From Desulfofundulus salinus (lineage in GTDB: Bacteria > Bacillota > Desulfotomaculia > Desulfotomaculales > Desulfovirgulaceae), in NCBI RefSeq assembly GCF_003627965.1, contig NZ_RBWE01000001.1, forward strand, positions 265,525-329,524: a stretch of 64,000 nucleotides of DNA, written 5' to 3'. Positions 1,650-11,158 of the stretch are shown in pieces (the stretch's first letter is position 1; each line of letters opens with the position of its first letter). A program made the translations under genes and the position numbers. The notes below the pieces were generated by a model, which was not told where the DNA came from, ran no database searches, and was given only the letters and a program-made list of their open reading frames with translations.

Positions 1650-1862
1650 GTGATACAATTACCGCAATATCATTGGAACCTGGGCGACGATGCGAGTATG
1701 GACCGGGCGTGGAAGATCAGCCGTTATTTTGACCTGCCCACCCTGTACGACGCGGCTTTCATGGCCGTTGCTGAAGTGGTGGCGGAGAGGACAAGGGAAG
1801 AATGTGAGTACTGGACTGCGGATGAAAAGCTCGTAAGTGCGGTTGCCCCCGAGGAAAACTAG
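1650..1862 (+). pseudogene. C-terminal remnant of a PIN-domain (VapC-type) toxin
   Basis: The 70-residue frame contains the C-terminal signature of VapC ribonuclease toxins: DLPTLYDAAFMAVAE, then CEYWTADEKLVSAV. The first of these carries a conserved Asp of the PIN metal site. Full VapC proteins are about 130-150 residues; the N-terminal half with the first catalytic Asp is missing, and no antitoxin gene lies upstream. It is therefore most likely a dead fragment of a type II toxin-antitoxin module, though the short frame is still open. Confidence 0.6.
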
Positions 1863-2161
1863 AAAGAATTATACCAAAATAGCTCTAAAGAGTTTGAGAT
1901 GTAAAGGAAAAACCGATCTGTTGAATAGATATCCCACGAAAACCATTGTTTTTGGAGAACAAAGAAAGTGGACAGAAAAAAGATCTCTAAAATAAAATTT
2001 AGCTAATATTATTTTTCTAAAATTATTGGGGACAAACGGGCTGATATTCTTCAATTTTAATTGATTTTAGGCTACAAAGATATTTGACAAAATCCTGCAT
2101 ATCCATCTTTTCTCACATTTGCAACTCTCGAACTTTTTGGTTTTAAGAGGGGAGTAGTAGG
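1863..2161. other. AT-rich intergenic stretch
   Basis: About 300 bases of clearly lower GC than the flanks. No hairpin terminator or RNA gene was recognised. It presumably holds the promoter of the following ATPase gene, but I could not fix convincing -35/-10 boxes. The shift in base composition suggests a junction between acquired segments. Confidence 0.4.
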
Positions 2162-3100
2162 GTGGGAAAGAATGAATTAATCATTCCCCTTCCAACTGTA
2201 TTAAGCGTGGATAGTTTATGCGAAATAGATTTTGCATCTTTTTGGAATGCTAGGTATAATCCGGTGGGCAAGATCGTTTTCGACTTTTCCCCGATCGATT
2301 TTGTACGACCAGCAGGACTCGTTTCCATCGTATCTTTAATGAAGCTTTCAAAGTATTTAAAAGTTGCAGATCAGTATTATCTCAGGGAACCAAAAGATGA
2401 TAATGTAAAACAATACCTAAAACGAATGGGGTTTTATGAACAATTCAGGATCATAAAAGAGACAGTAAGTCCAAAAGTAGAATCCTCATCTCTTTGTGAG
2501 TTGAGGGAAGTAAAAGACGAATTGGAAGCATATAAATTAACAAGTCAACTTACCAGAATCGTTAAAGAACAAGTACAACTTGAAGAAAAAATGATGCGAG
2601 CCATTTCTCATGCTCTCGGTGAAATAATAGATAACATATTTCATCATAGTAATTCGCCAATAAATGGTTTTGTCTGCGCACAAACATACAAAGGTGCAGG
2701 GGAAATCGAAATTGCTGTAGCAGATTGTGGCATTGGTATTAAAGAATCGTTAAAAGGAAATCCTATTTACAGGAAGATTAGGGACGACGAAGAAGCCATT
2801 ACTACTGCGGTGGGGAAAAGAGTAACAGGCAAGCCGCACACCAATACCGGGCAAGGTCTCTTTATATGTCGAAGATTCATAAAAGAAAATTTTGGTCGAA
2901 TGGACATTATTTCCGGAAGTGCACAATATACCTTAAGAAACACCGATGCTCATGTGAAATGCTACCCCTTTTGGCAAGGAACAGTAGTTTCTTTGGTATT
3001 CAATTTAAAACATCCCATTGATCCTAAGAGAATTTTGGATAGCGAATTTCCGATGGATGCCGAACTTGATGATTTGTTTGGGGAGACGGATGAAAAATGA
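2162..3100 (+). CDS. HATPase-family ATP-binding protein with N-terminal STAS-like region
   Basis: A 312-residue protein. Residues ~1-95 look like a STAS-type fold (VFDFSPIDFVRPAGLVSIVS, then KRMGFYEQF). Residues ~140-275 form a GHKL ATPase: N box with ALGEIIDNIFHHS, G1 box VADCGIGI, and G2 box TNTGQGLFICRR. The GHKL fold is that of anti-sigma kinases such as SpoIIAB and of histidine kinases, but no phosphoacceptor His box is present. The GTG start at 2162 follows a GAGGGGAG Shine-Dalgarno region. The gene overlaps the next by four bases, so the two are translationally coupled. The likely role is a partner-switching signalling ATPase on the mobile element; the target is unknown. Confidence 0.7.
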   Translation: MGKNELIIPLPTVLSVDSLCEIDFASFWNARYNPVGKIVFDFSPIDFVRPAGLVSIVSLMKLSKYLKVADQYYLREPKDDNVKQYLKRMGFYEQFRIIKETVSPKVESSSLCELREVKDELEAYKLTSQLTRIVKEQVQLEEKMMRAISHALGEIIDNIFHHSNSPINGFVCAQTYKGAGEIEIAVADCGIGIKESLKGNPIYRKIRDDEEAITTAVGKRVTGKPHTNTGQGLFICRRFIKENFGRMDIISGSAQYTLRNTDAHVKCYPFWQGTVVSLVFNLKHPIDPKRILDSEFPMDAELDDLFGETDEK

Positions 3101-3396
3101 TCATGCTAGGAAGTATTAGCACTCACCTGACAACCCGAGCATTAGGAAAGAGAGTTAGGGAGTTGATTTTGAAGAGGCTAGAAAGCTCAACTCAAGTATT
3201 ATTAGATTTTACCGGAGTAGAAATGGCATCACACTCTTTTTGTGATGAGGCGTTTGGTAAGCTACTCCAAGAACTAGGATTTGTAAAATTCAAGCGCAGA
3301 GTAAAATTCTCTGGTTGTTCTGCTGAAGTCGAATCTGTTATCAAGTTTGCCTTGAGAAATAGGCTTGTGGAAGAAAAGGTGTACGTTACATGCTAA
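3097..3396 (+). CDS. STAS-like DUF4325 protein
   Basis: A 99-residue protein of the DUF4325 family (STAS-like). It shows the strand-helix pattern VLLDFTGVEMASHSFCDEAFGKLL, in which SHSFCDEAFG is typical of the family and occupies the place of the phosphorylated loop in anti-anti-sigma factors. It starts inside the stop codon of the upstream ATPase, giving tight coupling. By analogy with SpoIIAA/SpoIIAB this small protein would be the partner and possibly the phosphorylation target of the ATPase; that is inference. AT-rich DNA with no clear terminator follows. Confidence 0.7.
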   Translation: MIMLGSISTHLTTRALGKRVRELILKRLESSTQVLLDFTGVEMASHSFCDEAFGKLLQELGFVKFKRRVKFSGCSAEVESVIKFALRNRLVEEKVYVTC

Positions 3397-3488
3397 TTTA
3401 GTAAAGTTTTCATTATAACACATTTTTTTAGTTAGTCAAAAGTGATAAAATAAATGAAAATTTACAGGAAATTTATACTGATTTACAT

Positions 3489-4200
3489 TTACCAACCGAT
3501 AGCACTGTTAATGAATTGGTAAATAACTGAGAAGAACTTAAAGGGACTGGGCATATATCCGTCAACGGATTTAGCGTGGGGTACCCAATGGTACCTGTTC
3601 CACCGCAGTGCAACTGGCGCAGGGGTTTCGGCCTCCACCCCGTGCCTCTTCGCGGGTCCCTCAAGCAGTATGTTCAAAGCCGCGTTGGCATCGGCGTGCC
3701 AGATACAACCGCACTCTCGGCAGAAAGCCTTGTGCCTGGTTATCCGATCCACCGGGGAGTCGCAAGCTGCGCAAACGGCAGAAGTCCCGGTGGGATCGAC
3801 TGCGACCACTGATACCGTACCGGGCACAGGTGGCTTCAATGGTCCTCCTCAACATGCGGAAGGCCCAGAAGTTATGCACAAGGAGGTTCTTCGGTCCGAA
3901 GTCTATATCTTTTCGGATGCCGGTCAGGTCTTCGAGGAAAACCGTGGTCACCCCGTGCTGCTTGTCCTAGAATGCGGGCAATTTCCGCGGCCAGGGCAAT
4001 GAAAGCGTGTTTGAGCCTCTTCGCTCAGATGCGGTAGAGCAGGTGCAGGATGCGGGAAGTTTTCCGCTCGGCCTTGTTGAGTCTGGACTGCTCTGCCGAA
4101 ATCCGCCCTGTCCAGTAGAGGAAATCTTTCCAGGGCTCGCGGCTCGAGAAGAGCAGTTGGTGACCCAAACTTGATCCTTTTCGAAATTTGGATATTACAT
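3489..4200 (-). pseudogene. tnpB: broken IS200/IS605-family TnpB
   Basis: Read on the minus strand, three different frames carry consecutive pieces of TnpB: RISAEQSRLNKAERKTSRIL (mid region), VFLEDLTGIRKD followed by WAFRMLRRTIEATCARYGI (RuvC-II region), and the C-terminal zinc finger AVCAACDSPVDR...CRECGCIWHADANAALNIL. At least two frameshifts and an in-frame stop separate them, and the N-terminal part (about the first 150 of roughly 400 residues) is gone. No tnpA is seen. TnpB is an RNA-guided nuclease whose guide RNA comes from the 3' end of its gene; this copy cannot be functional. Confidence 0.8.
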
Positions 4201-8586: not shown

Positions 8587-8829
8587 GTGGGAGGGATAAA
8601 GGAGAACACAACAGGCTCATCGAAAATAAAGGTAGAGCACAAAAAAAGCGAGTATACGGTGGTGCATGTTTTTCCGGCCAATACCGAAGATGGTGATGAA
8701 CGCCTGAAAAAATTCAAGCGGCAAGTCATTGACTTAATTCTGGCCAGTGCACCACATGTTCAAGGAGTTAGTAATTATGCGGGCTGCTGCTTTATATCGC
8801 GTATCGACTTTGAAACAGGTGAAGAATAA
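8587..8829 (+). CDS. small protein upstream of and overlapping the recombinase gene
   Basis: About 80 residues from the GTG at 8587 (AGGGGG lies 9-14 bases upstream; GTG 8578 and TTG 8581 are alternatives). The sequence has an alternating strand/helix pattern (YTVVHVFPANT, then KKFKRQVIDLILASA) with a Cys pair near the end. It overlaps the recombinase gene by about 50 bases in another frame. Small genes in this position often accompany large serine recombinases and may act as accessory or regulatory factors; that role is inference only. Confidence 0.5.
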   Translation: MGGIKENTTGSSKIKVEHKKSEYTVVHVFPANTEDGDERLKKFKRQVIDLILASAPHVQGVSNYAGCCFISRIDFETGEE

Positions 8830-10426
8830 TCAAGAAGAAACCATTCCGTTGCAACAGCACGCTGTATACGCTTTTGTTGCCCAAAAGGGCTGGGAACTGG
8901 CCGTGGAGTATTTCGAGTCGGGCGTATCCGCATACAAGAAATCCTTCAAAAACAGGGATGTTATACAGGATATCATCAAGGACGCGGCCGCCGGGAAATT
9001 CGACGTCCTGCTGGTGTTTAAAGCCGACAGGCTCAGCAGGAACAGTTTCGAATATCCCCTGGTTCTCTGGGAACTGAGCAAGCTCGGTATCACAGTGATC
9101 AGTGTGGCAGACGAAAAAGTCCTCAACATCGAAGATCAGGCCGAGAAGCTTATCAGGTTTATCGAGGGGTGGCAGGCCGAAACGGAGTCCCGGAACACGT
9201 CTATCCGGGTATCCCGGGCCATGATGGACATGGCGAGAAAAGGCAAATGGTCCGGGGGGAGGCCTCCGTACGGATTCAGGTATTCGCAAAAGAAGAATGT
9301 AAGCATAGAAATTGATCCCGAGGAGGCCCGGGTAATTCAGATTATGTTTGAAATGGCTGAGGACGGTGCGGGGGGAAATAAAATCGCCAAATGGCTCAAC
9401 CAGCAGGGTTACCGGACGAAAAACGGTCGTTTATGGACAGGATATACTGTTAGGAGGGTCATGCAAAACCCTATTGTGGCGGGGTTGCCTGCCTACAACC
9501 GCTCAACCAGGCGCGATAAATCTTCTTGTTCTTATGATCTTAATAATCCTGAGATCATAATCCCCCGGGATGAAAACGGGAACCCCTTGCCTATTCCCGG
9601 GTTGCAGATAATACCGCTCGAAACCTGGCTTAAGGTAACGCAAAATATGAGACAAATTGCCGAACACAGTAAAATAAGTGGAAGAGCGATAGAAAGCACA
9701 TCTCTGCTGACAGGCTTTTTAAAGTGCGGTTCATGCGGGCGGGGTTTCCTTTCATCTACAAGGCGCCTGCCAAACGGAAAGATCAGGAGGGCCTACGTTT
9801 GCTCTACGAAAAACCGGCGGGGGTCTCAGTTCTGCAACGGGCAAACCCAATATGAACAGCATATTATCGATAAAATTTTTATGGACGAACTTGAGCAGTT
9901 TTTGCAAAAAATAGATCTTGGTGATTTAGCGGAATACCTGAGGGGAAAGCAGGCAGCCTCTCTTTCTATCGCTCAAAAAAGAGAAAGAGAACTGAACCGC
10001 GAAATCTCAAAGGCCAAGCGCATACTGGACTCATGGGTTGAGCGCTTGAACATGTATTTTGCGGACCCCCACAGCAGTCTATACTCTGAAGAACGTATTG
10101 CCACAGAAATCTCCAAGTGGGAGAAAAATATCCGAGAATTAGAGGAATCCCTCTCTGCTGTAAGAAACGAGTTGCAAACGGAAGTATGCGAGCAGGATAA
10201 GATTAAGGCTTTTATGCGAGTCGCGCCGCGTTGGTTGGAGCTGTTTAAGTCATCTCCTGTGCCCATTAAAAAGAAAATGCTCGCACAGATTGTAGACAGG
10301 GTGGTTTTATCTGGAAAACGAATCGAGATACATTACAACGTAAACCTTCTGGAAGTAGAGCGCACTGTCGGCGCGAGCGAGCAGCAGCAAGGAGAAATTA
10401 AATTGAAGGTAATACGTTCAATTTAA
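8777..10426 (+). CDS. large serine recombinase (integrase)
   Basis: A 549-residue site-specific recombinase. The N-terminal resolvase domain has the nucleophile Ser10 in ALYRVSTLKQ and the KADRLSRN motif (~82-89). A Recombinase domain follows (~155-290, including GKWSGGRPPYGFRY), then a zinc ribbon (KCGSCGRGF ... VCSTKNRRG ... FCNG), and a long coiled-coil C-terminal part typical of phage and ICE integrases of the TnpX/phiC31 kind. ATG 8777 is chosen for its CAAGGAG site 9 bases upstream; the ATG at 8747 lacks one. As the last element gene before chromosomal genes it should catalyse integration and excision; the right attachment site should lie within 10427-10540. Confidence 0.9.
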   Translation: MRAAALYRVSTLKQVKNNQEETIPLQQHAVYAFVAQKGWELAVEYFESGVSAYKKSFKNRDVIQDIIKDAAAGKFDVLLVFKADRLSRNSFEYPLVLWELSKLGITVISVADEKVLNIEDQAEKLIRFIEGWQAETESRNTSIRVSRAMMDMARKGKWSGGRPPYGFRYSQKKNVSIEIDPEEARVIQIMFEMAEDGAGGNKIAKWLNQQGYRTKNGRLWTGYTVRRVMQNPIVAGLPAYNRSTRRDKSSCSYDLNNPEIIIPRDENGNPLPIPGLQIIPLETWLKVTQNMRQIAEHSKISGRAIESTSLLTGFLKCGSCGRGFLSSTRRLPNGKIRRAYVCSTKNRRGSQFCNGQTQYEQHIIDKIFMDELEQFLQKIDLGDLAEYLRGKQAASLSIAQKRERELNREISKAKRILDSWVERLNMYFADPHSSLYSEERIATEISKWEKNIRELEESLSAVRNELQTEVCEQDKIKAFMRVAPRWLELFKSSPVPIKKKMLAQIVDRVVLSGKRIEIHYNVNLLEVERTVGASEQQQGEIKLKVIRSI

Positions 10427-10542
10427 TACATGTGTTTGGTCGTGACTAGGGAACAATAGGAAAGCCCAGGTTGCCTACAGCTTGCAAAATGGTTTCCACA
10501 AGGCAGCACCTCCGTCTCTCAAAATTTCTGGCTCGGGGAGGC

Positions 10543-10850: not shown

Positions 10851-11158
10851 GTAAATATTCAGTGAACCTGGTTAGATGCGGCGCTGTCCCCCGCTCACTC
10901 CGGTGCTCCGCGCCGACAGCACCGCGGTTCGCTTCGGGCCGACTCTGGCTCTCTGCGGATTGCCCGCTACTAATCATTCTTCGTTGTTACCTCTTGAAAC
11001 AGTATGTCTTAAAAGGTCTTCTTCCGGGTAGTTCATCATGCGTCCTCGAGAGCCGAGCCGGCAGCCTCGCTTCACCGGGTGCTGTTACCGGCGCTTCGCA
11101 AGTCGTTCGCTCCGGACAGCGCCGCATCCTCTTCATAACGGTTTTACTGAATATTTAC
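10851..11158 (+). mobile_element. palindromic MITE-like element, copy 1
   Basis: 308 bp bounded by perfect 13-bp terminal inverted repeats GTAAATATTCAGT / ACTGAATATTTAC. Inside them lie long palindromic arms (ATGCGGCGCTGTCC near one end and its complement near the other). Eight-base flanks GTTTTGGC and GTTTGGGC differ at one position and look like a target-site duplication. No protein is encoded. Relative to copy 2 (12998-13201, opposite orientation) it carries about 100 extra bases at 10931-11030. It splits the DUF1659/DUF2922 gene pair. Confidence 0.8.

Follow-up and report, generated by a model that had tools for sequence, protein, structure and literature searches.

A mobile kinase–STAS gene pair related to CapKS and VapKSC in Desulfofundulus salinus

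Two overlapping genes of Desulfofundulus salinus, A and B, encode a GHKL ATPase and a small DUF4325 protein, and they raise the question of what such a pair does in the company of mobile DNA. We examined them within the window, by which we mean the whole 64,000-nucleotide stretch of DNA that was analysed (Table 1). On balance, we favour the explanation that they form a minimal, stress-activated kinase–STAS switch that acts on a partner outside the pair, plausibly in defence.

Table 1 Features of the kinase–STAS locus in window coordinates
Feature	Position	Strand	Basis
Gene A, STAS–GHKL kinase, CapK/VapK-like	2162..3100	+	312 aa, GTG start
N-terminal STAS domain of A	2162..2476	+	hhalign to host STAS proteins; column counts
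GHKL ATPase/kinase domain of A	2483..3016	+	N, G1 and G2 boxes intact
Acidic C-terminal tail of A (...MDAELDDLFGETDEK)	3047..3097	+	predicted disordered in A modelled alone
Gene B, DUF4325 STAS-like partner	3097..3396	+	99 aa, ATG start
His46-Ser47 of B	3232..3237	+	gapless alignment to VapS; pattern counts
TnpB (Cas12f1-like TNB) C-terminal remnant, just 3′ of pair	3489..3839	-	TNB domain 9e-10
Large serine recombinase, right element end	8747..10426	+	Resolvase 2.8e-23, Recombinase 3.6e-17, Zn ribbon 5.4e-11
14-bp insertion core, right copy (ACAATAGGAAAGCC)	10453..10466	+	empty sites in G299, G300 and G301

Both open reading frames are intact over the coordinates first assigned to them and overlap by 4 nucleotides (ATGA). 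The sequence AAGAGGGGAG (2144–2153) lies 8 bases 5′ of the GTG of gene A, and GGGGAG (3080–3085) lies ahead of the start of gene B. To judge from the overlap, gene B is translationally coupled to gene A, as the initial annotation had proposed, and its product matched DUF4325 (PF14213) with an E value of 4.2e-16 (58.8 bits, cut-off 23). Base composition bears out the AT-rich island described there, with a GC content of 0.38 in the pair and 0.36 across 1861–3560 versus 0.53 in the whole window. Promoter-like sites (7 versus 4.4 expected) and terminator-like sites (1 versus 1.6 expected) were near expectation, so we claim nothing from them, and an Rfam search matched no family.

We detected HATPase_c at residues 147–253 of A (E = 3.7e-7) in a domain search that recognised no helix-turn-helix (HTH) family in either A or B. 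Alignment of residues 1–105 of 20 A homologues to host STAS proteins with hhalign gave a probability of 87.6% (E = 3.5e-6, 80 columns). The AlphaFold model of A, built with 28 homologues, was confident except for the last 15 residues (pLDDT 86, pTM 0.87), with pLDDT mostly 93–97 in the N-terminal STAS region. A is thus a GHKL ATPase with a STAS-like N terminus of its own, as first described. The top PDB match of the model was SpoIIAB (Z 13.6, rmsd 3.3, 136 aligned), followed by RsbW (Z 10.4, rmsd 2.4, 103 aligned), and the likeness to SpoIIAB/SpoIIAA that had been noted holds in that both are kinase–STAS pairs and SpoIIAB heads the structural matches. A weak structural match (E = 0.38) came from a giant virus, Tetraselmis virus 1 (BFVD A0A2P0VNE6, annotated DUF4325). 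Residues E154, N158, H162, D188, G190, G192, G230 and G232 of the N, G1 and G2 boxes are conserved over 39 diverse A homologues, E154 being present in 38 of them. The intact GHKL boxes, and a partner STAS protein with a Ser close to where helix 2 begins, are features that the pair shares with the CapK/VapK kinase–STAS superfamily.

The closest characterised relatives of the pair are CapK/CapS and VapK/VapS/VapC, in which a single kinase–STAS core is put to immune use in two ways (Chambers et al., EMBO J 2026; PMC13373217). CapK (HTH–STAS–GHKL) pairs with CapS (STAS–wHTH), and CapK activated by single-stranded DNA (ssDNA) phosphorylates CapS, a repressor, so that immune operons are derepressed (PMC13373217). 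In the VapK–VapS–VapC system, the VapK kinase is proposed to release the PIN toxin, and a VapKSC operon gave about 2-log protection against phage Bas42 (PMC13373217). VapS is the closest solved relative of B: Escherichia VapS (PDB 9z7o) was matched by a profile of B relatives with an E value of 2.3e-18 and by the single B sequence with an E value of 0.001. As in VapKSC, the gene for an STAS–GHKL kinase precedes that for a small STAS protein of the DUF4325 family, with an HTH on neither. A has an aromatic residue, Phe47 (codon 2300–2302), in the column that is Trp in the three VapKs recovered here. By comparison with these three, Phe47 may correspond to the predicted ssDNA-stacking position (VapK F54, CapK W68); F or W occupies the column in 16 of the 36 homologues that have an N-terminal STAS domain and is not universal. 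The locus resembles CapKS in that the kinase gene lies directly 5′ of the gene for its STAS partner and restriction–modification (R-M) or immune genes adjoin some relatives, but A has no N-terminal HTH, B no wHTH, and no immune operon follows. Two phage protein families with no assigned function also match: PHROGs phrog_3364 covers A (5.9e-41), and the 441-position profile of phrog_5816 spans both proteins.

At most of the roughly 110 loci surveyed, which span several phyla, homologues of A and B lay side by side or formed one protein, with pairs in Bacillota, Bacteroidota, Fibrobacterota and Verrucomicrobiota. Pairs are carried by plasmids of Alicyclobacillus, Nostoc, Deinococcus and Sulfobacillus and by Marinitoga phage MPV1, Clostridioides phages and streptococcal phages, and many others lie on chromosomes, where we recognised no integrase close by. 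DUF4325 was found in 13 of the 299 genomes sampled from the phylum, and a homologue of the pair in one of five sister species. This is not the distribution of core chromosomal loci with a dedicated sigma factor, the pattern that the initial annotation had set against its own reading. Fusion of A to B appears at several places in the kinase tree, and well-supported branches force at least two such lineages. A clade of rumen Bacteroidales (61 loci) has a shorter A of about 217 aa that lacks the N-terminal STAS domain. We consider it very probable that A and B act as one kinase–STAS unit. Three loci carry B with no recognisable kinase (L037, 9600–9893; L056 and L057, 7995–8288). In the relative G158 (L032, 7817–9415), the kinase is joined in one reading frame to a fragment of OrfB/TnpB; TnpB debris also lies beside the pair in the window. 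Scans of viral contigs with a single protein and a close A alignment returned no relatives.

Some 7 kb separate the pair from the right end of an 85.5-kb integrative element, for which three sister species (G299, G300 and G301) retain the empty site. In these species, the sequence to the right of window position 10453 is contiguous with sequence that lies 85.5 kb leftward here, at G000:C1:190,517. The 14-bp insertion core recurs at the left end as ACAATGGGAAAGCC, some 85.5 kb upstream and beyond the window; ACAAT(G/A)GGAAAGCC is found at both ends of the element and in single copy in the empty sites. The element encodes a type IA topoisomerase, an actin-like protein, an ArdC N-domain protein, a TraG/HerA-like ATPase, a T2SSE ATPase, a type ISP R-M enzyme, a D12 methyltransferase and two VapBC-like pairs, the last being the nearest toxin genes, 0.3–2.1 kb beyond the left edge of the window. 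The mobile setting that had been proposed is thus substantiated by the insertion itself. As for the toxin and transposon debris, the transposon part stands, in the form of the TnpB remnant, whereas the toxins are ordinary VapBC-like pairs just outside the window. Upstream of metK, at 10851–11158, the window also contains an interspersed repeat of about 310 bp without an Rfam match; dozens of full or partial copies, 72–99% identical, are present in most Desulfofundulus genomes searched.

Residence on such an element might mean that the pair regulates the excision, transfer or lysogeny of its carrier, as a CapKS-like system without a DNA-binding domain in which B acts on a DNA-binding protein of the host or the element. 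Copies on phages lie in or near the lysis–integrase–repressor region, XRE-like and IrrE-like genes are carried by this element, and CapS is itself a repressor (PMC13373217), all of which would suit such a role. However, B has no HTH, many copies are chromosomal with no recognised integrase nearby, and no conserved partner regulators stand beside the pair: when about 1,650 neighbour proteins were clustered, no family turned up next to it repeatedly across lineages, and the neighbour families that are shared are either scattered in position or, by eye, regulators, transposases, recombinases and integrases. We therefore regard control of the element as unlikely.

Somewhat less likely still is an incomplete VapKSC system, in which the toxin gene has been lost and TnpB debris occupies the place of vapC, or in which a VapC-like PIN protein encoded upstream acts in trans. 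A and B do resemble VapK and VapS, and in real VapKSC loci (L048, L155 and L156) vapC directly follows vapS, where the window has the TnpB remnant instead. Two VapC-like PIN genes lie 2.5–4.2 kb upstream of the pair, at window positions -2087 to -1620 and -736 to -341 (L040 15913–16380 and 17264–17659). But each is preceded by a small antitoxin-like open reading frame of its own, and we rejected them as partners of the pair because neither has detectable similarity to the VapCs of VapKSC. B carries HSFxDE where VapS proteins have [ST][AP]FxN. In the kinase tree, the kinases of the three PIN-linked (VapKSC-like) loci that we recovered, on Deinococcus plasmid P5, streptococcal phage Javan172 and faecal phage MT837343, group together (94/85), whereas the window kinase forms a separate group with those of L024 and L025 (99/99); the deep branches of this tree are unresolved and many of its rows are long, so we claim no ancestral order. 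Moreover, a VapC of the VapKSC family was present in only one of the roughly 110 loci of our first survey, and its absence is therefore the norm.

The putative acceptor site bears on whether the switch works by phosphorylation at all. The phospho-acceptor of VapS, Ser48 (numbered on the assumption that the PDB chain bears a tag of 18 residues, taken from the chain length relative to the 116-residue protein), aligns without gaps to His46 of B, with Ser47 adjacent. The window type and most relatives share [HNS]SFxDE, the dominant Bacteroidales group having Asn46-Ser47. With His, or Asn in that group, at the canonical position in place of Ser or Thr, phosphorylation of Ser at the known site is impossible: either the acceptor has shifted by one residue, which would make Ser47 the likely acceptor, although this is a guess, or phosphorylation is not the switch. 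A also differs from VapK in having Pro50, in the region that holds the phospho-Ser of classical STAS proteins. Given His or Asn at the canonical acceptor position, A could instead lack kinase activity and use ATP to remodel or sequester B, in a switch that works by nucleotide state only; GHKL domains do occur in non-kinase ATPases. We consider this improbable, since the best fold match of A is a Ser kinase, SpoIIAB, and a Ser at 46 or 47 is retained in nearly all clusters. By analogy with CapKS and VapKSC, we think that the switch probably works by phosphorylation.

A sigma-factor switch of the SpoIIAB–SpoIIAA or RsbW–RsbV type was considered and rejected. These systems likewise combine a GHKL kinase fold with a STAS partner, but they differ from the pair in the window, where A owns a STAS domain, B belongs to PF14213 rather than PF01740, and no wHTH, PIN, immune operon or sigma factor adjoins the genes; the initial observation that no sigma factor is nearby agrees with all neighbours examined. 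The host has a spoIIAA-like gene elsewhere, near a sigma-factor gene (G000:C1:1474451), but the idea of host manipulation, that the pair titrates or mimics the SpoIIAA/SpoIIAB/sigma-F sporulation switch through the resemblance of A to SpoIIAB, found no specific support and is very improbable given the missing sigma factor, the extra STAS domain, the different STAS family of B and the abundance of the family in non-sporulators (Bacteroidota, Streptococcus, Deinococcus, Gordonia and rhizobia). DISARM DrmA (PADLOC PDLC02567) was rejected as well: the similarity of A and B is confined to the first 400 of its 1,750 model positions and neither is a helicase of about 1,000 aa or more, as expected of DrmA, whereas in the DrmA-like helicases that we found, one of them in this genome, the match begins at about position 639. 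Orphan kinase–STAS pairs may therefore be miscalled DrmA. The helicase in this genome lies at G000:C1:2616429–2619314, in an open frame of 1,098 aa.

How A might hold its partner is suggested by its C terminus. Unfused A proteins close with an acidic stretch bearing [DE]xL[WF], which reads ...ELDDLFGETDEK in the window and EEEDLW, MMDDLW, NELEELW or EEDLF elsewhere. Counted per 40% identity cluster, 13 of 17 clusters of unfused pairs have the tail, whereas none of the 11 clusters of fused or A-only proteins does (Fisher test, p = 7e-5). Of 63 paired A proteins, 51 carry the strict terminal motif, compared with 5 of 958 other genes, but many of the 63 are closely related and the cluster count is the fairer number; a loose form of the motif is also found in 8% of other genes. 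The tail is gone from all fusions except L118, which groups with its unfused clade and retains the motif as a linker. Two of the three VapKs recovered here also have an acidic aromatic tail, and at two loci where B has a longer, CapS-like C terminus the kinases lack the LW tail. In the model of A alone, residues 298–312 have pLDDT below 50, whereas the tail reaches a moderate 72–78 in the model of L118, a natural A–tail–B fusion; a fold search with this fused model gave GHKL matches only, which do not probe the fold of B. The LW/LF tail may hold B tethered to the kinase, and such a role would explain its near-absence from covalent fusions. The main text of Chambers et al. (PMC13373217) describes neither this tail nor the His46-Ser47 acceptor arrangement.

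The neighbourhoods of some relatives connect the family to defence. The closest relative, in Desulfofundulus thermosubterraneus (62% and 59% identity; a TAG in this copy is a normal stop), is nested on the opposite strand between pglX and pglZ of a BREX locus that also has brxA, brxB, brxC and brxL. BREX cargo, PARIS for example, often lies between these two genes. Embedded auxiliary effectors have been described for BREX loci (PMC12839542). Four Bacteroidota pairs follow hsdR, genes for an N6 methyltransferase and a TIR protein come after another pair, and the B-only locus L037 adjoins a type I R-M system. In the window's own element, the full-length, single-chain type ISP R-M enzyme (1,583 aa; G000:C1:242783–247531, L197 2783–7531) is encoded about 20 kb to the left of the pair. 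A count of defence neighbours found R-M or BREX genes within 8 kb at 8 of 49 non-Bacteroidales loci versus 1 of 61 Bacteroidales loci, counts that are descriptive and not an unbiased test of enrichment because the probe genes were drawn from these same loci. The suggestion of a defence module is strengthened by these neighbours and by kinship with CapKS and VapKSC, but falls short of proof, with no output partner found and a single case among the Bacteroidales; we hold the chances that the output is defence-related to be evenly balanced.

Taken as a switch that acts on a partner outside the pair, A and B would operate as follows, with ssDNA sensing, phosphorylation and release inferred from CapKS and VapKSC, whereas the pairing, the fold and the mobility are shown by the computations above. 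At rest, unphosphorylated B would be bound to its target, an effector or repressor encoded outside the pair. A would sense stress, most plausibly as ssDNA in the groove between its own STAS and GHKL domains; that the signal is probably ssDNA follows from the analogy with CapK, and the groove model cannot apply to the Bacteroidales proteins because they lack the N-terminal STAS domain. Activated A would phosphorylate B, likely on Ser47, and phosphorylated B would release its target or release itself. The pair would then be a small, self-contained switch, carried by phages, plasmids and integrative elements, through which DNA damage or restriction probably triggers a protective response. More tentatively, it may represent a stand-alone class, the third after CapKS and VapKSC, in which a switch with no effector of its own acts in trans on a neighbouring or host machine such as R-M or BREX, with an LW-tail tether and an acceptor moved by one residue.

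Our survey indicates that the kinase–STAS core is far wider than CapKS and VapKSC and mostly comes without either of the described outputs, on phages, plasmids, integrative elements and chromosomes alike. Two points are now directly testable, namely the binding target of B and the role of the LW tail as a tether between kinase and partner. Should ssDNA prove to be what the minimal pair senses, the pair could serve mobile elements and defence islands as a portable alarm, to be connected to whatever machinery is at hand locally.
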